This document shows, piece after piece, positions 381 to 20,163 of a DNA stretch of 64,000 nt (the first letter of the stretch is position 1; every line of letters starts with the position of its first letter). Location: positions 124,001 to 188,000 of the forward strand of contig NZ_ATZE01000009.1 in the NCBI RefSeq assembly GCF_000428045.1. The letters are read 5' to 3'. The notes below the pieces were generated by a model. It made no database searches and was not told the DNA's origin. It saw only the letters and a program-made list of their open reading frames with translations. Made by a program: the position numbers and the translations under genes. This DNA is from Sedimenticola selenatireducens DSM 17993. Lineage in GTDB: Bacteria > Pseudomonadota > Gammaproteobacteria > Chromatiales > Chromatiaceae.

Positions 381-381
381 G

Positions 382-1491: not shown

Positions 1492-1492
1492 T

Positions 1493-4304: not shown

Positions 4305-4328
4305 GCCAACAATCTGAGGAGATCCGAT

Positions 4329-4841: not shown

Positions 4842-4849
4842 GTGATCGT

Positions 4850-4878
4850 TGTGGGGTCCATTGGGCCCCACACTTTTT
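4850..4878 (+). terminator. Rho-independent terminator after fae
   Basis: A ten-base-pair stem (TGTGGGGTCC paired with GGGCCCCACA, one G-T pair), a three-base loop and a following run of five T. It starts nine bases after the fae stop and ends 20 bases before the next gene's ATG. It probably ends most fae transcripts while letting some through. Confidence 0.88.
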
Positions 4879-4898
4879 CTCCTCGTCAGGAGCAGGTT

Positions 4899-6134
4899 AT
4901 GCACTGTTTGGAATGTGGCGAAACAGTATCTCAATTGGATAACGGGCATTTGCTCGAATGCAGCAACCTGACAATCCAGGAGTATGCAATACGTCACCAG
5001 CTGCCACTGGATTTGATTCTGCATAGTGATCAGATTAACCAGCCTGATCATATTGAAAATTATGCCCGCCCTGTTGCCAGACCGACAGAGGCGGCGCGAC
5101 AGGCCCTGTTGGGGCTGCGCTGGGCGGGATTGCTACAGGAAAATGATGGTTTCGTCGATGTGGCTGGTGAAGTACGCCGCCTGGACCTGCTGTTGTGGAC
5201 TCTGAATCATCTGGTTGATTACGGTTTTCAGTTTCATCAGATTTATGAATACCGCTCGGATACACATCGTGTAGTGGCGAAAAATCTTCTCCGGGCACCG
5301 TTGCGAAATCTGGTTCATGACTGGGCAATGCCTGAACCACCACCTGCCTTTTTGGGCGCTCTGGCAGTGTACATGGCCCACCGTGCGGAGTGGCATGCGG
5401 GTTACCTGTTTATGCTCTTCAGCCGACCGATTTATGCCGAGGCCGTTCGTGAACATTTGGCCTGTAATTTTCACATCCATTGTCAGGTGCTGGATGCATC
5501 CGGTGAATCAGATGCAACAGGTGGTTCACTGTTACGCACGCTGACACTGGCTGATGGTGACAAACTGCTTGAGTTGATGAAGGATCGCTTGATGACCATG
5601 CCGACGGCCTGGGAACGTTTTCAGGCCATTACACCACAGGCAAGTGTGACCAAGGAGCTGGTTTTTGATTCCGCCCATTTTATTACTGACCATCCGGCCA
5701 AATGCTCCAACCTGCATGGAGGGCGTTATGTCCTGCAGGTGGAAGTGACCGGGCGTATCGATCCGGTAACCGGATGCGTGGTGGATTATGGCTATCTGAA
5801 ACGTGTGGTAAACCGGCTGATCATCGAACGTTTTGATCATCATCATCTGAACTATGCAGCGGAGGAGTTGGCCTGGCGGTCCAGCACCGAAATGCTATGC
5901 GTCTATATCTGGGAACAGTTGATTGAATATCTCCCCGGATTGAGTGGCATACGTCTGTATGAGACGACTAATTCATGGTGTGACTATCAGGGAAGATCAC
6001 TGGCTGAACAGCAGGTACAGGGTTCCGAATCATTGTTATATCCATTTCGTGCCAAAAGCGATTATACAGAACTTAGACGACGCCTGATTCAGCAACCGGG
6101 CAAACCCAGGATGACGGCATGCTCGGTCAGCTGA
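4899..6134 (+). CDS. Zinc-finger plus degenerate 6-pyruvoyl-tetrahydropterin synthase-like protein
   Basis: A 411-residue protein with three parts. Residues 1-45 form a small finger (C3, C6, H17, C21) followed by a segment resembling MucR/Ros proteins (TIQEYAIRHQLP). The middle is unrecognised. Residues about 250-365 match the PTPS/QueD fold: FDSAHF, C269-SNL-HGG, FDHHHLN and LYETTNSW. PTPS binds zinc through three histidines; here His260 and His273 remain but the third is Gly275. A role in pterin synthesis or as a regulator is inferred from context only. The start is set at ATG 4899 after CAGGAG; an earlier in-frame codon at 4842 would lie before and inside the fae terminator. Confidence 0.75.
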   Translation: MHCLECGETVSQLDNGHLLECSNLTIQEYAIRHQLPLDLILHSDQINQPDHIENYARPVARPTEAARQALLGLRWAGLLQENDGFVDVAGEVRRLDLLLWTLNHLVDYGFQFHQIYEYRSDTHRVVAKNLLRAPLRNLVHDWAMPEPPPAFLGALAVYMAHRAEWHAGYLFMLFSRPIYAEAVREHLACNFHIHCQVLDASGESDATGGSLLRTLTLADGDKLLELMKDRLMTMPTAWERFQAITPQASVTKELVFDSAHFITDHPAKCSNLHGGRYVLQVEVTGRIDPVTGCVVDYGYLKRVVNRLIIERFDHHHLNYAAEELAWRSSTEMLCVYIWEQLIEYLPGLSGIRLYETTNSWCDYQGRSLAEQQVQGSESLLYPFRAKSDYTELRRRLIQQPGKPRMTACSVS

Positions 6135-6810
6135 AATGCCGGATATCCGCCGCGGTCAACGCGCCATTGTGCAGCGCGCTTGCCAATAATACTCCGGCGG
6201 CGCCGGCTGATTGCAGTTTTTCGATATCAGAACGGTTGCGCACTCCACCGGCCATGTACAGGGTCGCGTCAGGCGCGACCGACTGCCAGCAGGTGAGTCG
6301 TTCCATGTCGGGACCCTGCAATGATCCCACGCGGGAGAGGTTCATCAGAATTAGGGTGTCCGGACGGCGTGCACTATCGCGCGTGATACCTGAAGGATCG
6401 CGCAGATTATCGTCGACCGAATCGATAGAGAGAATCGTCTGGTCGACTGGGAACCAACGGTTGAATTGCCAACTTTCAGAGCCGATGACCGGTCGGAATG
6501 CGAGTTGAGATTGCAATGCCTGGATTGCTGCAGGAGAGGAAAAGCCCGCGTCTACCCAGAGAATCAGTTGGGGAAAGGTGTGAGCGATTGTTTGCAGGGT
6601 CAGGAGATTATTGCCCATTCCCTGGATGGCATCCAGGTCTGCCAGGTAAAGCTGCTGCATGCCTAAGTCATCGTAAAGTCTTGCTATCAGCGGCATGACT
6701 TCACCCTGGCGGCATAACGGTGAGTCAACTGGTCGATACCCGGCGCGACGCCCTCGAATGGCGTGAACCGCCTGGCCTTGCAGAAGATCAATGACAGGGA
6801 TGATATTCAA
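6127..6810 (-). CDS. HisA-like (COG1411-type) TIM-barrel protein of the H4MPT cluster
   Basis: A 227-residue protein starting NIIPVIDLLQGQAVHAIRG, the phosphate-binding beginning of HisA/HisF barrels, with LYLADLDAIQG near residues 54-64, VDAGFSS near 87 and AGGVRNRSDIEKL near 188-200. It lacks the rest of a his operon and resembles the HisA-related proteins found in H4MPT gene islands of methylotrophs and archaea. Its reaction is not established. It begins with TTG, the only start near the conserved N-terminus, nine bases from the divergent mfnD ATG. It overlaps the PTPS-like gene end by eight bases. Confidence 0.8.
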   Translation of the reverse strand: MNIIPVIDLLQGQAVHAIRGRRAGYRPVDSPLCRQGEVMPLIARLYDDLGMQQLYLADLDAIQGMGNNLLTLQTIAHTFPQLILWVDAGFSSPAAIQALQSQLAFRPVIGSESWQFNRWFPVDQTILSIDSVDDNLRDPSGITRDSARRPDTLILMNLSRVGSLQGPDMERLTCWQSVAPDATLYMAGGVRNRSDIEKLQSAGAAGVLLASALHNGALTAADIRHFS

Positions 6811-6819
6811 GGAGTTTGT

Positions 6820-7818
6820 ATGCGGATCTTTGTATTTGAATACATAACCGGTGGTGGTTGTGTGAACGAGGAGATGATACCAAGTCTGAAGGCGGAAGGC
6901 GATATGATGCTTAACGCCATTGTCCGTGACCTGACGGAACTGGAATCAATTGATGTGCTGATCAGTCGTGACGTGCGCCTGGATTCGCTCTCCCTGCCAA
7001 CCAACATCCACTGGGTAGAGGATGACTGGTGGAGCGCCTGGCTTACCTGTGTCAATGAAGTCGATGCGGTGTTGCCCATTGCTCCGGAAACCAACGGCGT
7101 CCTGGAGTCACTGTGTCGTGCCGTTGAAGCGTCTGGAAAACTGTTGCTCAATAGCAGTGCCGAGGCGGTGTCTATAGCATCCAGCAAAAAGGCGACCGTG
7201 GACTGTCTGGCCATGCAGGGAGTTCCGGTGATACCCACCTGGCGGTTTGGGGCCCATCCCCGCTTTAATAATCAGCCACTGGTGGTGAAACCTGATCAGG
7301 GCGTGGGTTGTCAGGATATTCACATCATTGCGGATGAAGCAGCACTGATTGAGTATGTAAAAAGTCGTGACCCGATTATTGAGTGGGTGGTACAGCCCTA
7401 CATGGCGGGCCAGTCGATCAGCATGTCGATTATGGTGGGTCACAGTTGTGTCTGTCTGGTCGGCACAAATATTCAGCGGGTGGTGCAGATGAACGACGGC
7501 TTTTACCTGCTGGGGTGTGTTGTCAACGGACTCAAGAGCCACCAGGTGGAACTGCTTGAATTGGCGAAGGGGATCTGCGCGGCGATTCCAGGGCTGTGGG
7601 GCTATGTTGGCGTGGATCTGATTCTTACCGAGCAGGGCCCGGTTGTCCTGGAGATTAACCCCCGGTTAACCACCGCATATGTCGGATTGAGTCAATCGAC
7701 CGGCAGGAATCTGGCGGCGATGATCATGCAACTCGCCGAGTGCCCAGGCGCACTGCCGACGGGATTGATCACCGGTGAGTGTGTACATATCGACCTGGAG
7801 CTGGGCCGTGTCGCCTGA
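6820..7818 (+). CDS. mfnD: ATP-grasp ligase, MfnD-like (tyramine/tyrosine-glutamate ligase)
   Basis: A 332-residue ATP-grasp protein beginning MRIFVFEYITGGG, the characteristic opening of the COG1821 family. It contains VVKPDQGVGCQDIHII near residues 155-170 and the metal site GPVVLEINPRLTTAY near 272-286. Archaeal MfnD joins glutamate to tyramine in methanofuran synthesis; the bacterial analogue methylofuran has been reported to contain tyrosine and a polyglutamate tail, so the bacterial substrate may differ. An AAGGAG ribosome site at 6809-6814 precedes ATG 6820. The gene overlaps the next by eleven bases. Confidence 0.82.
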   Translation: MRIFVFEYITGGGCVNEEMIPSLKAEGDMMLNAIVRDLTELESIDVLISRDVRLDSLSLPTNIHWVEDDWWSAWLTCVNEVDAVLPIAPETNGVLESLCRAVEASGKLLLNSSAEAVSIASSKKATVDCLAMQGVPVIPTWRFGAHPRFNNQPLVVKPDQGVGCQDIHIIADEAALIEYVKSRDPIIEWVVQPYMAGQSISMSIMVGHSCVCLVGTNIQRVVQMNDGFYLLGCVVNGLKSHQVELLELAKGICAAIPGLWGYVGVDLILTEQGPVVLEINPRLTTAYVGLSQSTGRNLAAMIMQLAECPGALPTGLITGECVHIDLELGRVA

Positions 7819-8860
7819 GCGGGGAGTGATTGGCTGGGATGTCGGTGGTGCCCACCTTAAGGTGGCCTGGCAGGATCGGCGCGGTACTTTGCGGCGCGTG
7901 GAGATCCGGGCGACACCCTTGTGGCAAGGATTGGAATCGCTGGATCTGACGATACGGGAGCTGGCGCAGGAGTTGCCGCTACAAATGTGCGAGCACCGTG
8001 TCACCATGACGGCGGAGCTGGTTGACCTGTTTGACGACCGCCGGTCGGGTGTCTGTGAACTGGTTGACTGGCTGAGCGTCAGATTGCCGCCACAGCAGCT
8101 CTTTTTTTTCGCAGGCCAGGAGGGATTTGTTCCCGCCGCTGTGGCCTCTAATTTTTATGAGCAGATTGCCTCAGCCAATTGGCTGGCGACAACCAGCTTT
8201 GCAGCTTCGGTGATTGCCTCTGGTGTGATGATCGATGTCGGGAGTACCACCAGTGACCTGCTGCCATTCGATAAGCACCAGCTACAAAACAGGGGTTTCA
8301 CTGATCGTGAACGTCTTTTGCATGGTGAGATGATCTATGCGGGCATCGTGCGTACGCCGCTGATGGCGATTACCGATCGGGTTCCGTTTAAAGGTGATTG
8401 GTTGACCCTCGCCAATGAACATTTCGCCACTACAGCGGATATCTACCGCATCCTGGGTGATCTGCCGGAACATGCCGACCTCTATCCGGCTGCTGATGGC
8501 AAGGGCCACTCAATAACGGCCAGCATGCGACGATTGTCGCGCATGATCGGAGCGGACCTGGGCGATGGCTCCGATGCTGACTGGTATCGATTGGCGGCTT
8601 TTTTTGCGGATCGTCAACTGGATGCGCTCTCATTGACGTGTCAGCGGCAGTTGAGTCTCGGATTGGCTGATTCCGCGACCCTGATCGGAGCCGGAGTTGG
8701 ACGGTTTCTGGTCCAGCGTGTGGCGGATCGGCTTGGGTGCCCCTATATCGATATTGGACAACTGCTCACGCAGGGGGAATACGGTGCAAAGGCCGCGGAT
8801 TGCGCCCCGGCAGTCGCACTACTGCGTCTGCAGCAATGCCGGAGTGCCGTATGTGCCTGA
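7808..8860 (+). CDS. mfnF: Hydantoinase-like kinase-fold protein, MfnF homologue
   Basis: A 350-residue protein with ASKHA-type motifs: GVIGWDVGGAHLKVAWQD at the N-terminus and IDVGSTTSDLLPF near residues 140-152. It belongs to the COG1548 family of H4MPT-linked proteins. The archaeal member MfnF couples an aminomethylfuran diphosphate to gamma-glutamyltyramine in methanofuran synthesis, so a parallel step for methylofuran is likely. GTG 7808 is chosen because a GGAG lies eight bases upstream; it overlaps mfnD. GTG 7826 is an alternative. The stop overlaps the next gene. Confidence 0.8.
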   Translation: MSPERGVIGWDVGGAHLKVAWQDRRGTLRRVEIRATPLWQGLESLDLTIRELAQELPLQMCEHRVTMTAELVDLFDDRRSGVCELVDWLSVRLPPQQLFFFAGQEGFVPAAVASNFYEQIASANWLATTSFAASVIASGVMIDVGSTTSDLLPFDKHQLQNRGFTDRERLLHGEMIYAGIVRTPLMAITDRVPFKGDWLTLANEHFATTADIYRILGDLPEHADLYPAADGKGHSITASMRRLSRMIGADLGDGSDADWYRLAAFFADRQLDALSLTCQRQLSLGLADSATLIGAGVGRFLVQRVADRLGCPYIDIGQLLTQGEYGAKAADCAPAVALLRLQQCRSAVCA

Positions 8861-10236
8861 GAGTGCGAATACCCTACCAGCCCGATAGCGCCGCGCTGTT
8901 TGCGCGTATTGCCGAGAAATCCTGGGCGGTGTTTCTGGATAGCGGATATCCCCGCACCAGCGCCGGTCGCTACGACATCCTGGCGGCCGACCCTTATCTG
9001 ACCCTGACCACGCGGGCCAATATTACCGAGATACGCGGTGAAGCTAGCATACGCCTGAGTCCGGATGATCCTTTTGCACTCTTGCAAGAAGTGTTGGGTG
9101 CGCATACAGAGAGTGCTGCGGATTTACCCTTTGGCGGTGGCGCAATCGGCTGGTTCTCCTATGATCTGGCATGGCGCATTGAACGGCTGCCGGAACAGCC
9201 GGACAATCGGGATCAAGTTCCCGAAATGGTAATCGGCCTTTATGACTGGGCTGTCGTGGTGGATCATAAACTATGCCGCAGCTGGCTGGTTGCTGAGGGG
9301 AGGGACCAGCGTACCCGTGAGCGCTGGTGGTCGCTGATAAAGCTTTTCTGCACCCCGTCAAGGCCGCGGATAAAACGTCCGTTCCATATTACGGGTCCGA
9401 TCCGAAGCAATATGGATCGCGCCACTTATGTGGCGGCGTTTCAGCGTATTAAGCAGTACATTCTGGATGGCGACTGTTATCAGGTGAATTTTGCGCAACG
9501 CTTTTCAGCGCCGGCGGAAGGTGATGGCTGGAGTGCCTACCAGGAGTTGCGGCGAATGAATCCCGCTCCATTTTCCGCCTATCTCAAAACACCTCATGCA
9601 GAGATACTCGGCTCATCACCCGAACGTTTTTTAAAGCTTAAGGGCAAACAGGTGGAAACCAAGCCGATTAAAGGAACACGACCCCGGGGTGATACGCCGG
9701 AAGGCGACTCCGCCATGGCCAGAGAGTTGGCATCAAGCTCCAAGGATCGCGCCGAAAATCTGATGATAGTGGATCTGCTGCGCAATGACCTGGGCCGGGT
9801 TTGTAATGCCGGAACAGTAAAGGTGCCGGAAATATTTTCTGTTGAGAGTTATGCCACCGTACATCACCTGGTCAGCACGGTAACCGGAGAGCTGAGGGAA
9901 GATCAGGATGCGATTGGATTGCTGCGTGCCTGTTTCCCCGGTGGTTCTATTACAGGCGCACCCAAGATTCGCGCCATGGAGATCATTGCGGAACTGGAGC
10001 CGGATTGCCGCGGGCCCTATTGCGGCTCGATAGCCTATATCGGTTTTGATGGCCGGATGGATAGCAATATCGTGATACGCACCCTGGTCTACAACCAGGG
10101 GGAGATATGCTGCTGGGCGGGCGGCGGTATCGTGCATGATTCCGAAGTCAATGCCGAATACCAGGAGACCTTTGACAAGGCATCTGCCCTGTTGCGTTTA
10201 CTCAAAGAGAGCCAATGGTCCAATGTGGGTAGTTAA
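8851..10236 (+). CDS. pabB: Aminodeoxychorismate synthase component I (PabB-type)
   Basis: A 461-residue chorismate-binding enzyme. Conserved blocks are LGSSPERFLKLKG near 250, ETKPIKGTRPRG, ENLMIVDLLRNDLGR near 305-320, CFPGGSITGAPKIRAMEI near 365-382 and CGSIAYIGFDG. It makes 4-amino-4-deoxychorismate, precursor of p-aminobenzoate. H4MPT carries a p-aminobenzoate-derived arylamine, which explains a pabB here apart from folate genes. ATG 8851 is chosen over ATG 8836 because GGAG sits six bases before it. It overlaps the preceding stop by ten bases and the next start by fourteen. Confidence 0.92.
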   Translation: MCLRVRIPYQPDSAALFARIAEKSWAVFLDSGYPRTSAGRYDILAADPYLTLTTRANITEIRGEASIRLSPDDPFALLQEVLGAHTESAADLPFGGGAIGWFSYDLAWRIERLPEQPDNRDQVPEMVIGLYDWAVVVDHKLCRSWLVAEGRDQRTRERWWSLIKLFCTPSRPRIKRPFHITGPIRSNMDRATYVAAFQRIKQYILDGDCYQVNFAQRFSAPAEGDGWSAYQELRRMNPAPFSAYLKTPHAEILGSSPERFLKLKGKQVETKPIKGTRPRGDTPEGDSAMARELASSSKDRAENLMIVDLLRNDLGRVCNAGTVKVPEIFSVESYATVHHLVSTVTGELREDQDAIGLLRACFPGGSITGAPKIRAMEIIAELEPDCRGPYCGSIAYIGFDGRMDSNIVIRTLVYNQGEICCWAGGGIVHDSEVNAEYQETFDKASALLRLLKESQWSNVGS

Positions 10237-10777
10237 GATCGGCGGCAGTCTGTATGACAGTCCACAACTCGAGGCTTGGCTGCGGGTGATCGCGGCGGGT
10301 GAACACCCGGCCATCCTCGTGCCAGGAGGTGGGCCGTTCGCCGATCAGGTACGTGTGGCGCAACAGCGCTGGCAATTTGATGATGCCACAGCCCACAGCA
10401 TGGCGCTCTGCGCAATGGATCAGTACGGTCTGTTGATGTCAGGCATCGAAGAACGACTGCAAACGGCAGCTGATCCGCAACAGTTGAAACAGATAGTGGC
10501 AGATGGTCACAGTGCCGTCTGGCTGCCTGCCGCGGCAGACCCTGACGTGGAGCCTAGTTGGCGGGTGACTGCTGATAGCCTGGCACTCTGGCTTGCTGCA
10601 AAAGTCGGGGCGGAAGGTGTATTGCTGGTCAAGTCGGCCCCGTTGACAACAGCGGGTTCGGATCTGCTGGATGCGGCGTTCGATGAGTTTCAGCGGCAGT
10701 GGGGCGGCAAGGTCAGGCTGGCGCATCGTGATGGGAGCAGTGACTGGCCGGCTTTGTCGGGTTCCGCCTTCGGCTAA
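10223..10777 (+). CDS. mfnE: Amino-acid-kinase-fold protein, MfnE homologue
   Basis: A 184-residue protein with the amino acid kinase N-terminus MWVVKIGGSLYDSPQL, ILVPGGGPFADQVR near residues 30-43 and TADSLALWLAAKVGAEGVLLVKS near 113-135. Archaeal MfnE phosphorylates an aminomethylfuran phosphate to the diphosphate used by MfnF, whose homologue is two genes upstream; the assignment rests on fold and context. The ATG is inside the end of pabB. The last residues (SGSAFG) and the stop are encoded by a palindromic repeat, so the natural C-terminus may have been altered by that repeat. Confidence 0.78.
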   Translation: MWVVKIGGSLYDSPQLEAWLRVIAAGEHPAILVPGGGPFADQVRVAQQRWQFDDATAHSMALCAMDQYGLLMSGIEERLQTAADPQQLKQIVADGHSAVWLPAAADPDVEPSWRVTADSLALWLAAKVGAEGVLLVKSAPLTTAGSDLLDAAFDEFQRQWGGKVRLAHRDGSSDWPALSGSAFG

Positions 10778-10840
10778 CCCGACCTACTGCGCGGATTGTT
10801 CGCCTCGAATGCAGGTCGGATTGGCGCAGCCTAATCCGAC
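10756..10840. repeat. Pair of REP-like palindromes
   Basis: Two imperfect hairpins. The first (10756-10783) has perfect arms GTCGGGTT and AACCCGAC around CCGCCTTCGGCT. The second (10815-10840) has arms GTCGGATT and AATCCGAC around GGCGCAGCCT. The first type recurs at 43380-43407. The first copy overlaps the 3' end of the mfnE-like gene and supplies its stop. Together they fill the space before the convergent SpeD-like gene and may serve as a transcription end. Confidence 0.8.
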
Positions 10841-10904
10841 AACCATTCTACTTAAAGTTTTACCTCCGCTTGGGACCGCTCAGTTTACTCCGCGGTCCAT
10901 TTTT

Positions 10905-11267
10905 TTACCTGGACGATAGGTCACGCCACTCAATGATCTCCACGCGTAATATGTCTTTGAGCTGTTGAATGCATTTTGTTACCGAAAATGGTTTGCAGGA
11001 GTAGAGGTCCAGGGTGAACAGTTTCTGCTCCCGCCAGGTGTAGAATGAGCAGCCTGACTCAGCCCAGGCCTGAAAGCCGCCGATGCCATGATGCAACTCA
11101 CTGACTTGGTCAGGGGAGAAGATCAGCAGCTCGGCTATCGGCGTCATGCCCAGTGTCTCTGTCATGATCTGGAGTACCTGCCTGACCGTCTGTTCGGTGA
11201 TCTCCTCGACACCATAGAGTCCTTCGATAATGGCGCGCTGGCGATAGATCTCGGGACAGATGGTCAC
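10905..11267 (-). CDS. SpeD-like (AdoMet decarboxylase-fold) small protein
   Basis: A 120-residue protein whose middle and end resemble bacterial S-adenosylmethionine decarboxylase. ELHHGIGGFQAWAES leads to E70-S71, the place of the serine that becomes the pyruvoyl group, then YTWRE instead of HTWPE, and LDLYSCKPFS with the proton-donor-type Cys91. The histidine after the serine and the processing histidine are replaced by Gly72 and Tyr76. It is therefore doubtful as a normal AdoMet decarboxylase. It starts with GTG overlapping the mfnB stop by one base and ends the fhc operon, so a C1-cofactor role is inferred. No polyamine genes are nearby. Confidence 0.65.
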   Translation of the reverse strand: MTICPEIYRQRAIIEGLYGVEEITEQTVRQVLQIMTETLGMTPIAELLIFSPDQVSELHHGIGGFQAWAESGCSFYTWREQKLFTLDLYSCKPFSVTKCIQQLKDILRVEIIEWRDLSSR

Positions 11268-11983
11268 TAACGAGTGGCCCGGTGGGGCATAAGGGGGGTC
11301 GCGGCGTCATGGCGTAACGGCAGGGCATCCCTGGCCCGCAGCATGGCCTCATGGTCTACTCGGCTGGTTCGACCGGCGACGCAGAGTGCACTGCGAAATC
11401 CCAGATAGTCGGCATTCAACGGCAGCAGGGAAGGGATGTCGTCAAGCGTCAGGCGACCAGCCAGTCCGCAGACCAGCCCGAGCAGTTGTGCCTGATCGAC
11501 AAAGCGGCCCAGACGGTCCAGGGTCCAGAGATCGGTCAGGCGTCCATTTTGTTTTTCCGCGGTATCGATCATGACCCCATGAAAGCCTTGTGTGGAGAGT
11601 AGCGGAAGCAGGGGTGTGGGATCAAAGCGGTCGGCAAAGCAGACAGCGATCAACTGATTGTGTCGGCACTCCTCCTCCAGTGCCCTGATGCAGGAGGCTG
11701 CTGTTGGTTCATCGAACAGGCCGAGTTTGATGTAGTCAACGCCACAGTCTGCGGTGTTCCTGACCGCGGCCTGGATGCGCTTTGGATCGGGAGGAAGATC
11801 GCCCAGGGTCGCACTGACAGGCCGCTCGCCATTGACATAGTCAACGATGGCTGCGATCCGGTCGAGGTCGAGTGCGCCCAGGGCGCCCCGGGACGGATCT
11901 TTGCAATCAATAATGTCGGCGCCGGTGTGCAGGGCAATAGCCGCCTCTTCAACCGAGCAGATGCTGGCCAGCAGACCGGTCAT
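11267..11983 (-). CDS. mfnB: 4-(hydroxymethyl)-2-furancarboxaldehyde phosphate synthase, MfnB-like
   Basis: A 238-residue TIM-barrel protein of the COG1891/MfnB family. It shows GADIIDCKDPSRGALGAL with the Schiff-base-type Lys28, SATLGDLPPDP near 62-72, DYIKLGLF near 85-92, and GFHGVMIDTAEKQNGRL near 136-152. MfnB converts two glyceraldehyde-3-phosphate molecules to the phosphorylated furan that becomes methanofuran or methylofuran. Start 11983 gives an ATGA overlap with the previous gene and an AGAGG eight bases upstream. ATG 11989 would have that site only two bases away. Confidence 0.9.
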   Translation of the reverse strand: MTGLLASICSVEEAAIALHTGADIIDCKDPSRGALGALDLDRIAAIVDYVNGERPVSATLGDLPPDPKRIQAAVRNTADCGVDYIKLGLFDEPTAASCIRALEEECRHNQLIAVCFADRFDPTPLLPLLSTQGFHGVMIDTAEKQNGRLTDLWTLDRLGRFVDQAQLLGLVCGLAGRLTLDDIPSLLPLNADYLGFRSALCVAGRTSRVDHEAMLRARDALPLRHDAATPLMPHRATR

Positions 11984-12552
11984 GCACATTGCCTCTTGCG
12001 ATAGTCGTGGACCTTTCGCATCAACCAGTCCCAGGCCTCCTGTTCTTCAATTCCCGCGGTCTTGTCGATGGCGATTTGCAGATAAGCGATCTCGCTTGCC
12101 AGTTTTTCTGGCGTAAGCAGATGAAGCCGGCTGACCAGTATGGCCAGCTCCAGCACGGCCGCCTGTGCACGGTTATAACCGCTGAATGGACGATGATTGA
12201 CCTGGTGAATGCGCTCGCATGAGAGCTCGGGCCGCTGGGTATCCTCTTTGACCTGCTGAACGCGGATCTCTTCATGACTAAGGGCGTCACGCAGGCGCAG
12301 TCCCTCGATCTTTTCACACGCTAGCAGGGGCCAGTCATAGTGCTGGGTCAGGCAACCGGCATAGATCCGCACATCGTCGGTGGTGTTGATACTGGCGGCG
12401 CCATCCCGCAGCAGGTTATCCAGTGTCCGCGAGGGACGAAAGGGTGCAATCAACCAGCTGTTGCACCGCTGCCGAATGCCCATGGGCGCCATATGCGGTG
12501 ATCCATCAGGATTACGGGTGATCAGGATAACTTCATGAATACGTTCACTCAT
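11980..12552 (-). CDS. DUF447-family protein of the H4MPT cluster
   Basis: A 190-residue protein beginning MSERIHEVILITRNPDGSPH, with a split-barrel flavin-binding look (HMAPMGIR, TLDNLLRDGAASINTTDD). It matches the DUF447 family, which occurs in methanogens and H4MPT-using bacteria. No reaction is established. It lies seven bases after fhcA, where fhcD and fhcC often follow in other methylotrophs, and overlaps mfnB by four bases. The start is chosen for GAGG five bases upstream; an upstream in-frame ATG lies inside fhcA. Confidence 0.78.
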   Translation of the reverse strand: MSERIHEVILITRNPDGSPHMAPMGIRQRCNSWLIAPFRPSRTLDNLLRDGAASINTTDDVRIYAGCLTQHYDWPLLACEKIEGLRLRDALSHEEIRVQQVKEDTQRPELSCERIHQVNHRPFSGYNRAQAAVLELAILVSRLHLLTPEKLASEIAYLQIAIDKTAGIEEQEAWDWLMRKVHDYRKRQCA

Positions 12553-12559
12553 AGACGCC

Positions 12560-14194
12560 TCAATGCAGTACCAGTTCACTGCCCAGTGTCTCAAGCAGAT
12601 GCTGTGGATCCAGTTTGTAGTGATCCATTTTCATCAAGTGATAGCGATCAAAATAGTCGCTGATGGATGATTCAATCGCCCTGTCAAAGCCGGGTGCAAC
12701 GGCATGGGTCTTGCCCTGGATGGAGCGTGTCACCTGGCCCTTTTCAACCACTGCTATACCGTTCTTGAACACCAGTTCTGCCTTGCCAAACATGGCGGCC
12801 TTATCGGCCTGTGGCTGGTAAACGGCAATGTCTGCAATGGCCCCAACGGAGAGATGACCCCGGTCACCGAGGCCCAATAGTTTTGCCGGTGCGGCCCGGG
12901 TCATGATGGCGATCTCATTCAGATCATATTCACGATCCAGATGGCGCAACAGGGAGATATCCGCCGAATTCGCATTGATTCGGTCCAGCCACTGGTTTCT
13001 GTAGTCTCGTTCCATGAGTAATCTGAACAGTTCCGGGTAAGCGGTAAAGGGCGCGCCATTGGGATGATCGGTGGTGAAGAAGACCCGCCAGGGATCATCA
13101 ATCAGCAGAAAAAGCTCCAGGCCGATCGCCCACTGCAGGGCATTGACATAGTTTTTCGGACGATAGCGGAACGGCACGATGCCGCCACCGCCATCTTCGC
13201 CTTCCCAAACCACCCATTTTTTCGGATTGGCAATATGTCGTGCATCAAACTGGCGCATTACATCACCGGAAATGGTGACGGTCTGACCAAACAGCACTTG
13301 TCCGATATCCACCGTGATATTGGGATTCGCCATGATGGCATCGGCCAGTGCGCTGGCCCCGGAGGAAAAGCCGGAATCCCCGTTGTCCCCGTAACCATAG
13401 AACTGCACATGAGCCAGGTGCATGGGCAGGCCATCGGCCGCCTTGATGGTATCAAGCGCGGTGTTCACATTGCCGGGAATACCCAGGTTATTGCAGTGAA
13501 CATGCACCGGATGCGGGATGCCCAGTTGCACAACCGCGCGCTGCACCGCGCTCAGGATAGCGCGCGATGTCATGCCGTACATCGGCACCTCGTCATCCAG
13601 GTTCAGTTGTCGCTGGTTGAACTTGAAAGCGGTGGCACCCCCCGCGTTGATCACCTTGACCCCCAGGCACCGGGTGGCGTGCAGGGTCCAGGCAATATAG
13701 TCATTGATACGGGCCTGTTCCGCGCCATCCCGCAGCATACGCAGCAGGAAATCATCATTGCCGACAATGGCCAGACCGGCGGTATCAATGATCGGTATGT
13801 CGGCCAGTTCAGCATGCGCCTGGTGGGCATTGATCGGCAGGACGGCGGGCTCGACGACCGTGGTAAAGCCCATCTCCGCATAGCGGTAGCCGGTGTCACA
13901 AGCCGACCATTTCGCACCGGAGAAGGGGAATTGTGGAAGGCGGGCGCGCTCGGCCAGGTGCTGTTCGGGTAGTAATAAACGGGCGTTGTTGACATTGCCG
14001 CCGGCGATGTGACTGTGAATGTCAATTGCACCGGCCATCAGGATCTTGCCTTCCAGGTCAATGGTCCTATCCGCCTCCGCCACGTTGTCTGGTGCCTCGC
14101 AGATACGTGCATCCCTGATCCAAATGTCACCACATGTCCCGTTGAGCTGATTGACCGGGTCGTGTATTCGAGCGCCTTTAAGTCGTGTCAGCAT
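12560..14194 (-). CDS. fhcA: Formyltransferase/hydrolase complex subunit A
   Basis: A 544-residue amidohydrolase-fold protein, homologous to FwdA/FmdA of formylmethanofuran dehydrogenase. Metal-site motifs are DIHSHIAGG (His60, His62), GVKVINAGG with Lys176 as the likely bridging residue, HVHCNNLG (His227, His229) and FTTDHPNG. In bacteria the Fhc complex moves the formyl group from H4MPT to methylofuran and hydrolyses it to formate; subunit A carries the hydrolase site. It overlaps fhcB by seven bases. Confidence 0.95.
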   Translation of the reverse strand: MLTRLKGARIHDPVNQLNGTCGDIWIRDARICEAPDNVAEADRTIDLEGKILMAGAIDIHSHIAGGNVNNARLLLPEQHLAERARLPQFPFSGAKWSACDTGYRYAEMGFTTVVEPAVLPINAHQAHAELADIPIIDTAGLAIVGNDDFLLRMLRDGAEQARINDYIAWTLHATRCLGVKVINAGGATAFKFNQRQLNLDDEVPMYGMTSRAILSAVQRAVVQLGIPHPVHVHCNNLGIPGNVNTALDTIKAADGLPMHLAHVQFYGYGDNGDSGFSSGASALADAIMANPNITVDIGQVLFGQTVTISGDVMRQFDARHIANPKKWVVWEGEDGGGGIVPFRYRPKNYVNALQWAIGLELFLLIDDPWRVFFTTDHPNGAPFTAYPELFRLLMERDYRNQWLDRINANSADISLLRHLDREYDLNEIAIMTRAAPAKLLGLGDRGHLSVGAIADIAVYQPQADKAAMFGKAELVFKNGIAVVEKGQVTRSIQGKTHAVAPGFDRAIESSISDYFDRYHLMKMDHYKLDPQHLLETLGSELVLH

Positions 14195-15381
14195 GTGCGT
14201 GGTTCCTGTGAAATCAGCTGCTCACAAAGTGTGGCACTGCCGGGCAGCGGGTTGTCTATCAGTCTCTTGAGAGGAACCAGTCTCAGTCCATCGGCACGAT
14301 GCAGATAACCCGAACGGTGTATACCAGGAACACCGACCGGCAAAAAAATGGTGGGTTCTGACTGTGTGAATGACATCGCTGGATGTCCAATAACAATGGT
14401 ATTTTGGGCTACATCGGGTGGGGGTGCACAACTGAGACTACTGATCCAGACCAGCAGATCGGTTTCACCGGATTGCATTAGCCGGTTACCGGCATACCTC
14501 TGCAGATCCTGTTCCGGATAACCCTTTGCATGACAGGTGCGAATACCAAAACCGTTATGCCAGGCGGCACTCAGTTGTGCGGTCATATCGCCTTCCCCCG
14601 CGCCCAGCATCAGCAATGCGCTACGTCGGGTTTCATTGATATCACGCACCAGCCCCACACAGGTGCGGATGATCAGCTCAGCGTTCTTCCCCGGCAGGCG
14701 GCCAATGATAAACACCGGGTAATTCGCACCCGTGATCTGCGTCAGCAGTTCATCGCTCCCGGCGGTATCGGCTTGTACCGGCTTGCCGGCAAGACGTGCA
14801 CGTGTGATTGATAGTAAATCGAGGCAGTCATGGTTGAGTGGATGGATAATCGGTGGTGAGTCGGCATGCAGCCGCTCCGTGCTGTCGAGCAGCTTCTCGT
14901 GCAGTCGCGGGTAGGTCTCTTGCGGGTCATGGCCAATCAATACAACCAGGTCGGCACGATTGCGTACCTCACCCATGCTGCTGACCTGCCAGCCGCCTTG
15001 CTGGTAGATCTGCAGATTGCGGGCAATTGCATCGCCATGCAGATGGTCGATGGCACCGCCAAAGTGATCCGCCATTTTGACTGCAGCCTTGCTGTCCAGC
15101 AGATCGCCAATCAATCCGTGAAACAGGGGTAGTCTGGCTTCTCGCAACATTTTGCCCGCCTGCTGCAACGCCTGCTTCCAGGTGGCCTCTTTCCCATGGA
15201 TGAGGGGTGTTTCCCGGGTCGCCTGGAATGCACTGGTAAATCCCGTGCGGGCCTTCTCGCAAGGTATCTGCTGCGCGGTCAGGGCTTCGTTGTGTACTGG
15301 CAGTGACAGATCGTCACAAACCATGGCACAGAAGGGGCAGCTAACAAACGCCAAAGTGTCCAGCCTGTCGTGTCTGTTCAT
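14188..15381 (-). CDS. fhcB: Formyltransferase/hydrolase complex subunit B
   Basis: A 397-residue FwdB/FmdB-like protein. It opens with VSCPFCAMVCDDLSL (Cys15, Cys18, Cys22) and has GEVRNRADLVVLIGHDP near residues 135-150. Its shape is that of the molybdopterin-enzyme-derived B subunit which, in bacterial Fhc, lacks formate oxidation and is structural. It is 33 bases after the DHPS-like gene and overlaps fhcA. The C and D subunits of the complex are not encoded in this window. Confidence 0.92.
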   Translation of the reverse strand: MNRHDRLDTLAFVSCPFCAMVCDDLSLPVHNEALTAQQIPCEKARTGFTSAFQATRETPLIHGKEATWKQALQQAGKMLREARLPLFHGLIGDLLDSKAAVKMADHFGGAIDHLHGDAIARNLQIYQQGGWQVSSMGEVRNRADLVVLIGHDPQETYPRLHEKLLDSTERLHADSPPIIHPLNHDCLDLLSITRARLAGKPVQADTAGSDELLTQITGANYPVFIIGRLPGKNAELIIRTCVGLVRDINETRRSALLMLGAGEGDMTAQLSAAWHNGFGIRTCHAKGYPEQDLQRYAGNRLMQSGETDLLVWISSLSCAPPPDVAQNTIVIGHPAMSFTQSEPTIFLPVGVPGIHRSGYLHRADGLRLVPLKRLIDNPLPGSATLCEQLISQEPRTC

Positions 15382-15414
15382 AATAGGCAGACGGGAGCAA
15401 AAGCTGGGCCAATC

Positions 15415-16827
15415 TCACTTGGTGCCTTTTTTTGTCAACGGTTTTCGACCCTGCTTGGTACTGCCGGGTTTGGCATATTCCAACAGATTCTCTTCCGTTG
15501 GCGGGGTCGCCACGCCCCAGTCGAGCATCTGGTCCTGGGTATAGCGTTTACCCAGTTGCAGGGCAATCTGGGCACGCGCCAGCTCAACGCCGAGGTAAAA
15601 GGCGTGACTGCCATCCTCTTCCACTCCCAGGTGGGGAAACAGGTCAAACGGATCAACGGCCTGGTGCAGTGCATCCCGATTGTAGATGTGTATGCCTTGA
15701 TGGTTGACCTGTATGCGAAAGTTGCGGTCTTTAACCCGCCTGGCCGCACTGCTGATTTCCGCCGAATCATAGGGAAACGGATTACGTTCATGTCGGTTAC
15801 TGAGCCCGCCATGCAGGCGTTTCGGCAAGGTGCGGTCTGCCCTGGACCGATACATGATGCGCCGTGAGAGGTCGGCCTCGCGTATCGCCGATCTGCAATG
15901 GGGGCTTACTGCGGTGGTCAGCACGGCCCCGATATGCAACTCGGATATGATGCCAAACAGCAGGGCATTGATGCCGCTGGTGTCCGCTTCGGTAAGCTCG
16001 GTCAGATTGCCTACACCCATCATCATGGGCGCGTCGGGGAGACGTCTTCGTGCCTCGTGATAGCGCACAACGGATTCGGTGAATCCAAAGTGGATGGGGT
16101 CGAGTATAGGGTCAATGAAGCAGCTTCTTCCTTTCGAATCGAGCGTCTCCCATGCGCGCTGCAGGCTCTCCAGATCGCCCGCGGTATAGGGGATCAGAAT
16201 GGGTGTGGCAGCCACTTCATCGGCAATCCACAGCGTCTGTTCGGTCAAGCTGAGCAGATAGTCGGCACCTGCCTGGCCACCGGCCAGCAGTTCCTCGTCC
16301 CGGTGGGAGTCTACGCTTACCCTGAATCCTTCCGACTTGAGCAGTCGCACACTCTCCGCCAGATGCGGAAACGGCTGGTCAGGAAGACAGCCCAGATCAA
16401 TGATATCGGCACCATCCTGGCGAAACAGTTCAGCCTGATGGAGTATGGAGGCCGGAGTCAGGTTGGGGGCATCCACGATCTCGGCAAAAATCAATACATC
16501 GTGCTGACTCAAATCGGCCGGTTGGCCTGCCTGTCCCAACCATTCCGGCAGATCGCGCAATTCATCCGGTCCACGCTGAAATGGGGTGCCATAGTGTTCA
16601 CTCAGTCCTTCCAGGTCGCCGCGACAGCGACCAGGGATCACCACCCGGCTGGCGCTTCCGGTATCTGCCAACTGGCGTTTGATCATCTCACCGGTCAACA
16701 GCGCCGCTACCTTGATTTTGAGTGGCCGTACTTCCCAGGTTACGGGGGTTGGTGCCATCGCGTGCAGCACCCGCCTCAGGCTGGCCTCGGCCAGTGACCC
16801 GGTCAGAAAGAGGAGATGTTCTGACAT
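15415..16827 (-). CDS. Dihydropteroate synthase-related protein of the H4MPT pathway
   Basis: A 470-residue protein. The N-terminal 130 residues (MSEHLLFLTGSLAEASLRRVL) form a separate domain. A pterin-binding TIM barrel follows, with ADIIDLGCLPDQPF near 168-181, FRVSVDSHRDEELL near 195-208 and FIDPILDPIHFGFTES near 250-265. The C-terminal part is variable. It fits the long DHPS-related family of methanogens and methylotrophs, thought to join the pterin to ribofuranosylaminobenzene in H4MPT synthesis. The start overlaps the flavoprotein gene by 25 bases with no obvious Shine-Dalgarno, suggesting coupling. Confidence 0.85.
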   Translation of the reverse strand: MSEHLLFLTGSLAEASLRRVLHAMAPTPVTWEVRPLKIKVAALLTGEMIKRQLADTGSASRVVIPGRCRGDLEGLSEHYGTPFQRGPDELRDLPEWLGQAGQPADLSQHDVLIFAEIVDAPNLTPASILHQAELFRQDGADIIDLGCLPDQPFPHLAESVRLLKSEGFRVSVDSHRDEELLAGGQAGADYLLSLTEQTLWIADEVAATPILIPYTAGDLESLQRAWETLDSKGRSCFIDPILDPIHFGFTESVVRYHEARRRLPDAPMMMGVGNLTELTEADTSGINALLFGIISELHIGAVLTTAVSPHCRSAIREADLSRRIMYRSRADRTLPKRLHGGLSNRHERNPFPYDSAEISSAARRVKDRNFRIQVNHQGIHIYNRDALHQAVDPFDLFPHLGVEEDGSHAFYLGVELARAQIALQLGKRYTQDQMLDWGVATPPTEENLLEYAKPGSTKQGRKPLTKKGTK

Positions 16828-17354
16828 GGCGCGGGTAGGTCGAGGGCATCCTCGAGTGACTGTAGACCGGTTACCACCCGGGTATATTCGAAATCCATCA
16901 GCCGGTGAGTGTTTTCCAGGTCGATGCGGCGTGGATAGACCATGACGGTTCCGCCGGGTGCCTCTGTCTCCATTTCCGGCGCCGCATCACAGGCAAATAC
17001 GATGCTGGGTATACGGCATTTGCCGGCCTGGGCATAGACATTGGTAACCAGTGAGTCGGATATGCCGTAAACCATCTTGGCCACGCTGTTGGAAGTGGCT
17101 GGTGCCACAATCAGTTGCTTGTATACCCCTTCATAGAAAAGCCCCACCGGCGATGCACTGGCTGTGTTGTCGTGAAAAATGCGGAAGCGCTGTTTCAGTT
17201 GCTTGACCGGAAGTCCGTAGACCTGGAGTACTTCGGCGGCCGCTTTACTGAGAAACAGATCGACCGCCGGGAGTCGCTCCGCCAGCTGCAGACACTCTTT
17301 AAGATAATGTCCCGAGCCGGTAATGGCCCAGGCCGTGCGGCCGGTATCAGGCAT
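16803..17354 (-). CDS. dmrB: Archaeal-type flavoprotein, dihydromethanopterin reductase DmrB-like
   Basis: A 183-residue flavoprotein with WAITGSGHYLKECL near residues 9-22, LFYEGVYKQLIVAPATSNSVAKMVYG near 74-99 and IPSIVFACDAAPE near 116-128, the FMN-binding pattern of the HFCD/COG1036 family. Family members DmrX and DmrB reduce dihydromethanopterin to H4MPT, the last step of cofactor synthesis. The start is ATG 17354, where the protein fold begins; it overlaps the ptpS-like gene by eight bases. Confidence 0.82.
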   Translation of the reverse strand: MPDTGRTAWAITGSGHYLKECLQLAERLPAVDLFLSKAAAEVLQVYGLPVKQLKQRFRIFHDNTASASPVGLFYEGVYKQLIVAPATSNSVAKMVYGISDSLVTNVYAQAGKCRIPSIVFACDAAPEMETEAPGGTVMVYPRRIDLENTHRLMDFEYTRVVTGLQSLEDALDLPAPCQNISSF

Positions 17355-17844
17355 GGATGATCTCCCGCTGATAGATGCCCCACTGTTGATCGGCCTCTTC
17401 GACGGCGACTTCCAGTGTCTGCAGATTGCCAAGCCCCTGGTGCGCATGCAGGGCGTCGATGAGGCGGTTGCTGATATGGTAAGCAAGCATCTCTGCCGTG
17501 GTATTGGTTATCGGCAGCAGAATGCAGCTTGCGCGGCTCAGGATAAAGCGCTTGTCATAGCTGCGGATTTCCAGCATGTCGTCTTCCCGTTCAGTCAGCG
17601 TAATCTCGTCGCTTTCGGTTGGTATCAACACGCCGTCATGCAATTCCGCGCAGATCCTGGCAGCCAGCTTGTTCAGCAGAACAAAATCGATGACGAAGGC
17701 ATCCCGGGTGTTCTCCCCGCGCGCCTCCAGTTGCAGATGGAAGTTGTGGCCGTGGATGTTTTCGCAGCTCCCATTGAAGGTGATGAAGTGCGCGGCGTTG
17801 AAATGGAGTTCGCCTGGGTGTACGCGCACTGCAAAATGGCTCAT
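17347..17844 (-). CDS. 6-pyruvoyl-tetrahydropterin synthase family protein
   Basis: A 165-residue single-domain PTPS/QueD-type protein with the complete zinc site: FNAAHF (His19) and CENIHGHNF (Cys27, His31, His33). It is the first gene of the sigma-54-linked fhc operon. A role in making the pterin part of H4MPT fits the neighbours. QueD (queuosine) is the alternative, but no queuosine genes are nearby. AGGA nine bases before the ATG is a suitable ribosome site. It contrasts with the degenerate PTPS domain at 4899-6134. Confidence 0.85.
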   Translation of the reverse strand: MSHFAVRVHPGELHFNAAHFITFNGSCENIHGHNFHLQLEARGENTRDAFVIDFVLLNKLAARICAELHDGVLIPTESDEITLTEREDDMLEIRSYDKRFILSRASCILLPITNTTAEMLAYHISNRLIDALHAHQGLGNLQTLEVAVEEADQQWGIYQREIIHA

Positions 17845-17882
17845 GTCCCGGTATCCTGCGTGTTGACTCGTTGCCTGCAGAC

Positions 17883-17898
17883 TGCAAGGCTCGGGCCA
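17883..17898 (-). promoter_or_regulatory. Sigma-54 promoter of the ptpS-fhc operon
   Basis: On the minus strand the sequence reads TGGCCCGAGCCTTGCA, matching TGGCACG-N4-TTGCW with one change and with GG and GC in exact spacing. The predicted start point near 17872 leaves a leader of about 28 bases before the ATG at 17844. It sits between the sigma-54 activator gene and the operon. Confidence 0.72.
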
Positions 17899-17914
17899 AC
17901 CGGGGAGTTGTCGG

Positions 17915-19852
17915 CTAGCGGGGCGGTTTTATATCGTAGCGCTTCATTTTCCGGTACAGAGTGTTACGGCTGATGTTCAATTTCGTGGCAACCCGCGTGA
18001 CATTCCAGTGGGCCGCCTCCAGTTCCCGGATGATGGCATCACGCTCGGCGATATCCAGTGGGTTACTGGGCCGCGCGCGCTGTCTTGGTTCACCGGCATC
18101 GTCTCCACAGTCGCAGAATATCTCTTCTGGCAGGTCGTCCAGTCCGATGCTGTTGTTGTCACAAAGGCCGATGAGTGTGCGCATGATATTGCGCAGCTGT
18201 CGCATATTGCCCGGCCATTCATAGTGCTCCAGTGCATCCAGCGCCTCTTCCGCAATGATGACGGTATCCTGACCCGCTGATTCCAGCTTCATGATATGTT
18301 GAATCAGGGCGCGTCGATCTTCCCGGTCACGCAGGGGTGGCATCTGCAGGCTGATACCGTTCAGCCGGTAGAAAAGATCCTCGCGGAAACTGCCGTCCTC
18401 AATCTGCAGCTGAAGATTCTGGTGGGTTGCGCTGATCAGACGTATATCCACCTTGATAGGGGTTTCGCTACCCAGCGGTATGACTTCCCGCTCCTCCAGC
18501 ACCCGCAGCAGACGCGCCTGCAGATGTAACGGCATGTCGCCGATCTCATCAAGAAACAGCGTGCCACCGTGGGCTTGTGCGATCTTGCCTCGGGAACCCT
18601 CTTTGCTCGCCCCGGTAAATGCACCGGGCCGGTAACCAAACAGTTCGCTCTCGATCAGTGTCTCTGGCAGCGAGGCACAGTTGACCGCCACAAACGGCTT
18701 GCTTGCCCGGCTGCTGGTTTTATGTACCGCGTTGGCGAAGACATCCTTGCCGGTGCCTGTCTCTCCAAGCAGAATGAAGGGGATGTCGAGTTCGAGCAGT
18801 TTTTTCGCCCGTTCGATATTGTGCCGCATGCGATTGTCGCCAAACTCCAGCCCTTCCAGTGTCGGTGCCTCACGAACTGCTTCCGGCACAAAGGCCCGCG
18901 CTGATCGGGCTGGCTGACGTTTAGCGCTTATATCAGGGTTCGGTGGCTGGAAACTCGCGTAGAAGCGTCTACCCTGGCTGGCATCCCGCAGTGGCAGCGG
19001 CACCATGGCCTGATTGTGCGCATTGCCGAGTGCGTTGTTGGTGCGCAGGTTAAACAGTTCTTCAAAGGGGCGGCCGATAATGTCTTTCATGTCGAGTTGG
19101 AACAGGGCACTGCGATTGGCCGCCTGAATGCGACCTGTTTCGTCGAAGGCGATGACCCCTTCACCGAGGGTGCTGATGAACTCCGGACGGCTGTGAAAAC
19201 GCAGGATATAGTTATCGCGCATTTTGCAGAGAAATATCCGGTTCTCAATCAGTTGCGCGGACATGTTGACCAGCACCATGGTGTGCTGTTGCGCCTGCCT
19301 TGATTCACCCGAGGCGTCCAGTACCGCCACCAGTTCGCCGGTGGGATCAAAGATGGGTGCGGCAGAGCAGGTGAGGCGCGTGTTCTTGGTAAAAAAGTGT
19401 TCGTCCTGGTGGATAATCAGCGGGCGCTTTTCCACCAGGCAGGTTCCCATACCATTAGTGCCCTGGGTCTTTTCACTCCAGACCGCGCCCGTTTGCAGGG
19501 CAGTCTTGACCGCGGTGTTGGTGAACATGGGGTCACCCACATAATTAAGGACAACACCGTCGTGGTCGGTCAGCAGGATCGAATGTCCTGACCCGGCGAC
19601 CTGCTGATAGAGATTGGTCATCTCTGAACGGGCAATCTCCACCAGTCGGCGGGATTTTTCCTGTCGTTCCTTGAGGTCGGAGCGGTCGACAAGCACGGGT
19701 TCCGGGCGTCGTTCCGGATCAAGGTCATACTCATCCAGACAGCGTTTCCAGGATTGGACAATGCAATCGGTGACGGGTGTTGCGTTTGTTCCGCATCCAC
19801 GAACGGTTGATGTGACCAGACCACCGTGTGCCTTATTCGTGCTGAATTCCAT
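17915..19852 (-). CDS. Sigma-54-dependent transcriptional activator, AcoR-type
   Basis: A 645-residue regulator. An N-terminal GAF-like sensor (about 60-190, SILLTDHDGVVLNYVGD, EKTQGTNGMGTCL) is followed by a PAS domain (about 215-300, STLGEGVIAFDETG), an AAA+ domain (Walker A GETGTGKDV, the sigma-54 contact loop GAFTGA, LDEIGD) and a C-terminal Fis-type helix-turn-helix (NVTRVATKLNISRNTLYRKM). It has no receiver domain, so it probably senses a small molecule. It lies 70 bases before the ptpS-fhc operon with a sigma-54 promoter between them. Relatives include AcoR and regulators of alcohol metabolism. ATG 19852 is chosen as the family-like start. Confidence 0.88.
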   Translation of the reverse strand: MEFSTNKAHGGLVTSTVRGCGTNATPVTDCIVQSWKRCLDEYDLDPERRPEPVLVDRSDLKERQEKSRRLVEIARSEMTNLYQQVAGSGHSILLTDHDGVVLNYVGDPMFTNTAVKTALQTGAVWSEKTQGTNGMGTCLVEKRPLIIHQDEHFFTKNTRLTCSAAPIFDPTGELVAVLDASGESRQAQQHTMVLVNMSAQLIENRIFLCKMRDNYILRFHSRPEFISTLGEGVIAFDETGRIQAANRSALFQLDMKDIIGRPFEELFNLRTNNALGNAHNQAMVPLPLRDASQGRRFYASFQPPNPDISAKRQPARSARAFVPEAVREAPTLEGLEFGDNRMRHNIERAKKLLELDIPFILLGETGTGKDVFANAVHKTSSRASKPFVAVNCASLPETLIESELFGYRPGAFTGASKEGSRGKIAQAHGGTLFLDEIGDMPLHLQARLLRVLEEREVIPLGSETPIKVDIRLISATHQNLQLQIEDGSFREDLFYRLNGISLQMPPLRDREDRRALIQHIMKLESAGQDTVIIAEEALDALEHYEWPGNMRQLRNIMRTLIGLCDNNSIGLDDLPEEIFCDCGDDAGEPRQRARPSNPLDIAERDAIIRELEAAHWNVTRVATKLNISRNTLYRKMKRYDIKPPR

Positions 19853-20163
19853 CCAATATATCCCGTGGCCGTAGAAAAAGTGGATACTGCACTGCCTGTT
19901 AATTAGCATAGAATGAATGTTCATTGCAAATGCTGTTTGAAGCTGGGTTTAATGCAAAGGGGGCTTTTTCTTTACGCCAGACTAACGATCACCCATATCA
20001 GAGGATGTGCTTTAAATTATGCGCGGGTCATATTGGAATCGGTAAATCTGCCAGCCTATTTCCACTCAAACTACATGGCTAATCACACGGGTGAGACGAC
20101 TTGGTGCTAATGCATTCTGTTCCTACAAGTGCTATTTTGTGATGCTTGAAAACAGGAGTGTTT
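19853..20163. promoter_or_regulatory. Divergent intergenic region upstream of the activator
   Basis: About 311 AT-richer bases between the activator gene (minus) and a membrane-protein gene (plus). It holds the palindrome AATGAA-TG-TTCATT at 19912-19925, about 60 bases upstream of the activator start, a possible operator. No promoter boxes are convincing by eye. Confidence 0.35.

Follow-up and report, generated by a model that had tools for sequence, protein, structure and literature searches.

The methanofuran pathway contains a single amino-acid decarboxylation, in which tyrosine is converted to tyramine by MfnA, a PLP-dependent L-tyrosine decarboxylase. Tyramine-type methylofuran occurs in six of nine strains, and three of these six carry no MfnA homologue, from which tyrosine decarboxylases of an unknown kind have been inferred; the same paper names no further decarboxylation in either the methanofuran or the methylofuran pathway (PMC8141765). 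The SpeD-like protein described here would have only this proposed reaction in common with MfnA, a PF00282 protein of unrelated fold and cofactor. It belongs to the first of three related groups, distinguished as group A (found with one-carbon genes), group B (on chromosomes and plasmids) and group C (on viral contigs).

By sequence, the closest solved structures are the AdoMet decarboxylases of A. aeolicus and T. maritima. These class 1b SpeD enzymes (T. maritima TM0655, PDB 1tlu/1vr7; A. aeolicus, 2iii) share with the SpeD-like protein the fold over its whole length, the Glu-Ser pair, the Cys and the Trp of the HTW motif, whereas identity is about 18% and His68, His64, the N-terminal His, the S55 position and the Pro of HTWPE are all replaced. 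Additionally, the SpeD-like protein misses the NCBI equivalog TIGR03330 (29.6 bits, where the cut-off is 75.65) and is not linked to speE. SpeDA and SpeDC, known derivatives of the same fold that decarboxylate arginine or ornithine, have likewise turned from AdoMet and lost the conserved Pro (PMC10407285, PMC9992855). The SpeDC-type rows also share with the SpeD-like protein a C-K pair after the strand, whereas His68, expected to be kept in SpeDA and SpeDC (PMC10407285) and present as His in all SpeDC-type rows sampled, is Tyr in groups A to C. In the tree, groups A to C stand apart from the SpeDC-type rows, which were recognised by motif and include no characterised protein, and the polyamine gene linkage of SpeDA and SpeDC contrasts with the methylofuran gene linkage of group A.

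The fold of PanD, a pyruvoyl aspartate decarboxylase, is unrelated to that of SpeD. In PanD, Tyr58 rather than a His is credited with reprotonation and is not needed for activation (PMC3975893). The trypanosomatid AdoMetDC prozyme and ADL (PDB 5tvm; PMC3686867) are SpeD-fold relatives with lost processing and provide a model for a non-enzymatic role; they are eukaryotic class 2 proteins, whereas the SpeD-like protein keeps the processing Ser and the Cys.

The locus and its one-carbon gene neighbourhood

The window, the whole stretch of 64,000 nucleotides analysed, carries the SpeD-like gene as an open frame of 120 codons with a GTG start, whose G is shared with the last base of the TAG stop of MfnB. 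The surrounding features are as follows.

10905..11267, minus strand: SpeD-like protein of group A, 120 aa (PF02675, alignments, fold)
11267..11989, minus strand: MfnB (Orf22), (5-formylfuran-3-yl)methyl phosphate synthase (PF04476, 220 bits)
11980..12594, minus strand: DUF447 protein (Pfam match, PF04289/PF20766)
12560..14194, minus strand: FhcA, homologue of formylmethanofuran dehydrogenase subunit A (TIGR03121, 673 bits, above cut-off)
14188..15381, minus strand: FhcB homologue, divergent (TIGR03129, 166 bits, below the cut-off of 327.8)
15415..16827, minus strand: dihydropteroate-synthase-like protein, DUF6513 (PF20123; TIGR00284 below cut-off)
16803..17486, minus strand: flavoprotein resembling dihydromethanopterin reductase, at the head of the operon (about 94 bits to TIGR02700/TIGR02699, below cut-off)
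17883..17898, minus strand: predicted sigma-54 type promoter, TGGCCC-N5-TTGCA (10/11 consensus positions)
17915..19924, minus strand: GAF/sigma-54 activator (PF00158, 226 bits)
10136..10777, plus strand: MfnE-like kinase (Orf21), convergent with the SpeD-like gene (NF040622, 68 bits, below cut-off)
7775..8860, plus strand: MfnF-like protein (Orf9) (TIGR03123 above cut-off; NF040623, 130 bits)
6763..7818, plus strand: MfnD/MyfA-like ATP-grasp ligase of the tyramine--glutamate ligase family (NF040722, 96 bits, below cut-off)

Read along the minus strand, the sigma-54 activator is followed by the flavoprotein, the dihydropteroate-synthase-like protein, FhcB, FhcA, the DUF447 protein, MfnB and the SpeD-like protein, an order that brings tetrahydromethanopterin-type genes into the same operon. 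The plus strand carries Mch, a MyfB-like ligase, Fae, the MfnD/MyfA-like ligase, MfnF, PabB and MfnE, and FhcD and FhcC are located upstream of the window. An earlier note on this DNA had described the SpeD-like gene as the end of an operon with no polyamine genes; it does end the operon, the next gene, MfnE (10136–10777), being convergent, and no polyamine gene was recognised among the searched genes of 313–19924. The DUF447 gene precedes MfnB in every group A operon and is also present in the other cluster type. The FhcB homologue (14188–15381) and FhcC (L186:14514–15326) are strongly diverged from their usual-cluster versions, FhcC being 38% identical, and the FhcA of the SpeD-like operon type falls into a lower-scoring group. 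A methanethiol oxidase gene, mtoX, lies near the one-carbon cluster (L186:5908–7284), with SCO1-like and MauG-like neighbours recognised by eye, and a second copy is found on contig C1.

Across the family, order and class samples searched, group A is present in 12 genomes of three families: one family holds the window's own genome together with G003, G095, G149, G162, G042, G110, G181, G096 and G118, and two further families are represented by G340 and G455. MfnB is present in all 12, and the SpeD-like gene sits directly behind it in 10 (the gene order of G095, G149 and G162 being taken from the matching records L003, L005 and L004), so that the one-carbon link of the earlier note is real and narrower than stated there. 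The records in which this arrangement was read are L003, L004, L005 and L006/L024, where L003–L006 are Sedimenticola and Chromatiales metagenome assemblies, L021, L023 and L026, and L121 and L122 from the two further families, which are gammaproteobacterial. In G096 and G118 the SpeD-like gene is away from MfnB, which sits elsewhere in the genome.

In the class sample, 49 of 369 genomes carry MfnB, comprising 3/3 group A genomes and 46/366 others (Fisher p 0.002), and the co-occurrence with fhc genes that the earlier note had proposed as a check is borne out in the order sample, where FhcA exceeds its cut-off in 9/10 group A genomes and 18/200 others (p 2e-8); both tests ignore the relatedness of the genomes. 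The SpeD-like protein is not a general solution, because most MfnB genomes (46 of the 49 in the class sample) are without it. A phylum sample gave no group A member from beyond the class, and the viral contigs gave none either with a single-protein query or with a group B alignment.

A GAF/sigma-54 activator lies upstream of the group A operon wherever the contig extends far enough, and in all nine group A loci with an adjoining regulator the best sigma-54 site agrees with the consensus at 9–10 of 11 positions; L006 and L024 have the same sequence and therefore probably represent one genome, so that the nine loci probably stand for eight genomes. The activator also adjoins the SpeD-like gene in G096 and G118; no sigma-54 site was found between regulator and gene in G096.

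Fold, active-site residues and the wider branch

The SpeD-like protein matches PF02675 (AdoMet_dc) with 40.4 bits against a curated cut-off of 25, and PF00282, the PLP fold of MfnA, is absent from its Pfam matches. AlphaFold models the protein with a pLDDT of 92.7 from 52 alignment rows, and the same elements are obtained, with a pLDDT of 90.2, from 30 rows drawn solely from groups A and C, with no canonical row among them. The best Foldseek matches of both models are the SpeD structures of T. maritima and A. aeolicus (1vr7/1tmi/1tlu/2iii), and superposition on T. maritima SpeD by VIA-align gives Z 14.1 and an rmsd of 2.4 over 109 residues. The predicted structure is clearly that of a SpeD fold, as the earlier note had supposed in naming structure prediction as a check.

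The gene is under purifying selection, with pairwise dN/dS of 0.07–0.13 within the window's genus. Nine group A rows retain C4, P5, I7, R9, Q10, R11, H59, H60, G61, E70-S74, Y76, T77, W78, C91 and K92 without exception; because of these fixed residues and the dN/dS values, the frame is not a chance one.

Some key positions are kept and others are exchanged, those named in the earlier note (E70-S71, C91, Gly72 and Tyr76) being as it had described. E70-S71 and C91 (codons at 11060–11058, 11057–11055 and 10997–10995 of the window) align with T. maritima E62-S63 and C83, phmmer pairing C91 with the Cys of PDB 1tlu and 2iii, and all three are present in 11/11 group A rows. Neither S71 nor C91 varies anywhere in the three groups (25/25 rows), and position 70 is Glu or Asp; S71 thereby fits the conserved internal Ser expected of a pyruvoyl precursor. 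On the other side, T. maritima H64 and H68 correspond in the alignment to Gly72 and Tyr76 (codon 11042–11040). Position 76 is Tyr in 25/25 rows of groups A to C and His in 31/31 other rows (SpeD, SpeDC-type and related sequences), and position 11, where the SpeD-like protein has Arg11 in place of the second conserved His close to the N-terminus, is Arg in 25/25 and His in 30/31 of the same sets. The His following the processing Ser is also missing from the SpeDC-type rows, which makes the second His, H68 to Tyr, the telling loss. The Pro of HTWPE, which every true AdoMetDC keeps (PMC10407285), is position 79 here and reads Arg in 8, Ser in 2 and Lys in 1 of the 11 group A rows, and the T. maritima S55 position is Gly63.

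In class 1b SpeD, both processing and catalysis call for His68. Its counterpart in the human enzyme, His243, is required for the second step of pyruvoyl formation, T. maritima S55A still processes, and Glu62 is able to serve as a base (PMC3975893). The exchange at the S55 position would thus not be fatal to processing by itself, and, set against this summary, the kept Glu, the Gly at the S55 position and the change of His to Tyr suggest that self-cleavage would be possible in principle.

Groups A, B and C share the signature P-x-I-x-R-Q/K-R, S-G, Y-x-W and C-K/R and are mutually only about 27% identical. Profile comparison gives E values of 1e-23 for A with B and 2e-20 for A with C, compared with 6e-9 for A with canonical SpeD, and the maximum-likelihood tree unites the three groups in one branch (100/99), apart from 17 of the 18 canonical rows (100/100); the rows S_L099 and X_L019 are long and their placement is unsure. 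The sequences thus support a place for the SpeD-like protein in a branch of the superfamily rather than as a lone oddity. The survival of S71 and C91 in three groups at such low mutual identity argues for retained chemistry.

Group B includes a second SpeD-like protein in the window's own genome (C6:48288–48641; records L002 and L027), which carries the same signature at 28% identity, and relatives on plasmids of Halioglobus, Nostoc and Acaryochloris. Flavin monooxygenase-like, cupin-like and PhzF-like proteins were noted by eye near C6:48288–48641. Group C comprises 34 loci from a profile scan of viral contigs, and its IMG/VR records are L112–L120 and L205–L238. A saccharopine/lysine-dehydrogenase-like gene follows the group C gene in 12 contigs (18 loci, six contigs being represented twice), and an aldehyde dehydrogenase is close by in 8–9 contigs; these neighbours point to amino-acid chemistry. 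MfnB did not turn up as a neighbour in any of the group B and C loci that were examined, and a group C query gave no match in the phage collection.

Several further arrangements were observed beside these groups. In L114, of group C, the SpeD-like frame continues from a HAD-like stretch. Tandem canonical SpeD and SpeDC-type genes occur on the viral contigs L248, L249, L250, L251, L254, L261 and L267. Another SpeD relative, with E-T-S-H and H-x-W-D-E motifs, lies at L084 612–1809 in a 1.1 Mb genome with MfnB, divergent to a gene judged spermidine-synthase-like by eye.

Candidate function and alternatives

The lost histidines and the adjoining methylofuran genes are the reasons why the SpeD-like protein may be the missing tyramine enzyme, and the best explanation, held tentatively, is a pyruvoyl-dependent decarboxylase making tyramine. 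In this mechanism, a diverged class 1b SpeD would cleave itself at S71 into a beta chain (1–70) and an alpha chain (71–120) bearing an N-terminal pyruvoyl group. E70 would assist the N-to-O acyl shift, and the second step, in SpeD the task of the now lost His68, would fall to Tyr76 or to some other residue. An amino acid would next attach to the pyruvoyl group through its alpha-amino group and lose CO2, with C91 then protonating the intermediate. The substrate would most likely be L-tyrosine and the product tyramine, on which the MfnD-like ligase and MfnF would draw to make methylofuran; the SpeD-like protein would thereby replace the PLP enzyme MfnA. The fold, the residues, the clade, the gene linkage and the selection are observations, and self-cleavage, catalysis and the substrate are inferred. 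Tyrosine is the leading substrate by elimination; the sequence itself does not favour it over other amino acids.

In favour of this function count the linkage to MfnB and the co-occurrence with MfnB and FhcA, the invariance of S71 and C91, the purifying selection, the derivatives of the fold that decarboxylate ornithine or arginine, the amino-acid type neighbours in group C, and the tyramine-type strains without MfnA. MfnA over its cut-off was found in none of the 30 genomes searched. The single-contig genome G042 carries the SpeD-like protein, MfnB, MfnD, MfnE and MfnF, and its MfnA matches are at background level only. In the literature searched, mostly abstracts and hit lists, no paper was found that describes a SpeD homologue within a methylofuran operon or a tyrosine decarboxylase that depends on a pyruvoyl group. 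Against the making of tyramine count the loss of H68, the Gly at the S55 position, the genes away from MfnB in G096 and G118, and the many MfnB genomes without the protein. The window's genus also has two PF00282 proteins, PanP (905 bits) and a 496-aa decarboxylase with no assigned substrate, and the latter counts against it as well. Among relatives with the other cluster type, several lack both MfnA and the SpeD-like protein, so presence and absence cannot separate tyramine users from tyrosine users. Two candidate lines of proof were set aside as unusable: anticorrelation with a PLP tyrosine decarboxylase, as many relatives have neither, and the MfnD-like ligase as a sign that tyramine is used, as 28 of 30 one-carbon genomes carry it, whether or not they have the SpeD-like protein.

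Somewhat unlikely, and the strongest of the alternatives, is a relative that does not process at all, its fold having a regulatory or structural role in partnership with another protein, such as MfnB or a different enzyme of methylofuran synthesis. Such a role would accord with the loss of H68, the S55 position and the N-terminal His, with other residues fixed at 76 and 11, with the very strong conservation of further residues including R9, Q10, R11, H59, H60 and W68, and with the fusion of its start codon to the MfnB stop; an AdoMetDC-like protein (PMC3686867) and a fusion domain (PMC10407285) without self-cleavage are both known. However, a dead scaffold does not explain S71 and C91 being invariant in groups A, B and C, nor was MfnB the neighbour in those group B and C loci that were examined. 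Of the two readings offered in the earlier note, a pyruvoyl enzyme acting on a new substrate is favoured by this invariance and by the amino-acid clusters of group C, and a relative with no enzymatic function stays a rival.

It is rather improbable that the pyruvoyl-dependent decarboxylase acts on something other than tyrosine, for example a different amino acid, or a carboxylated intermediate in the synthesis of methylofuran or tetrahydromethanopterin. The residue and linkage evidence is identical to that for tyramine; group C lies beside oxidoreductases of amino-acid type and group A beside one-carbon cofactor genes, those of tetrahydromethanopterin type in its operon included. Against this stand the pathways as described in PMC8141765, with no second decarboxylation, and the neighbour in 10 of 12 genomes, which is the methylofuran gene MfnB.

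A service in methanethiol oxidation or its regulation, instead of methylofuran synthesis, is very improbable. It is brought to mind by G096 and G118, where the SpeD-like gene lies between the sigma-54 regulator and the methanethiol oxidase gene, and by the mtoX gene about 12 kb upstream of the window. However, mtoX is common in relatives without the SpeD-like protein, none was found in G340, which carries it, and the tree places the G096 copy within the MfnB-linked clade, which makes relocation the simpler reading of G096. A strict partnership with methanethiol oxidase was rejected, as the presence of one does not follow that of the other.

That the protein is a true AdoMet decarboxylase serving spermidine synthesis is scarcely credible and was rejected on residues, equivalog cut-off and context: the PF02675 cut-off is exceeded and the best solved structures are AdoMet decarboxylases, but the equivalog is missed, H68 and the Pro of true AdoMetDCs (Arg, Ser or Lys79) are lost, the genome has no clear spermidine synthase (one PF01564 match, 34 bits, cut-off 22.9) and the gene is linked to one-carbon genes.

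Returning to the proposed tyramine-making decarboxylase, a bolder extension, speculative and rather doubtful, would make the branch a new pyruvoyl one in which Tyr replaces the SpeD His in finishing self-processing. Group A would then be the first pyruvoyl-dependent aromatic amino-acid decarboxylase, supplying tyramine for methylofuran, and groups B and C would be related decarboxylases with other amino-acid substrates, those of C being virus-borne.

The source of tyramine in methylotrophs without MfnA has been posed as an open question (PMC8141765), and the SpeD-like protein is a candidate tyramine-making enzyme for one gammaproteobacterial lineage. The domain-match label "S-adenosylmethionine decarboxylase", as given in Acaryochloris and to phrog_3125, need not mean spermidine synthesis, and for group C the phrog_3125 label may be wrong. 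If self-processing is true, the SpeD fold forms a pyruvoyl group without the conserved His, and the substrate range of SpeD-derived enzymes would, if the proposed function is true, extend past polyamine precursors.
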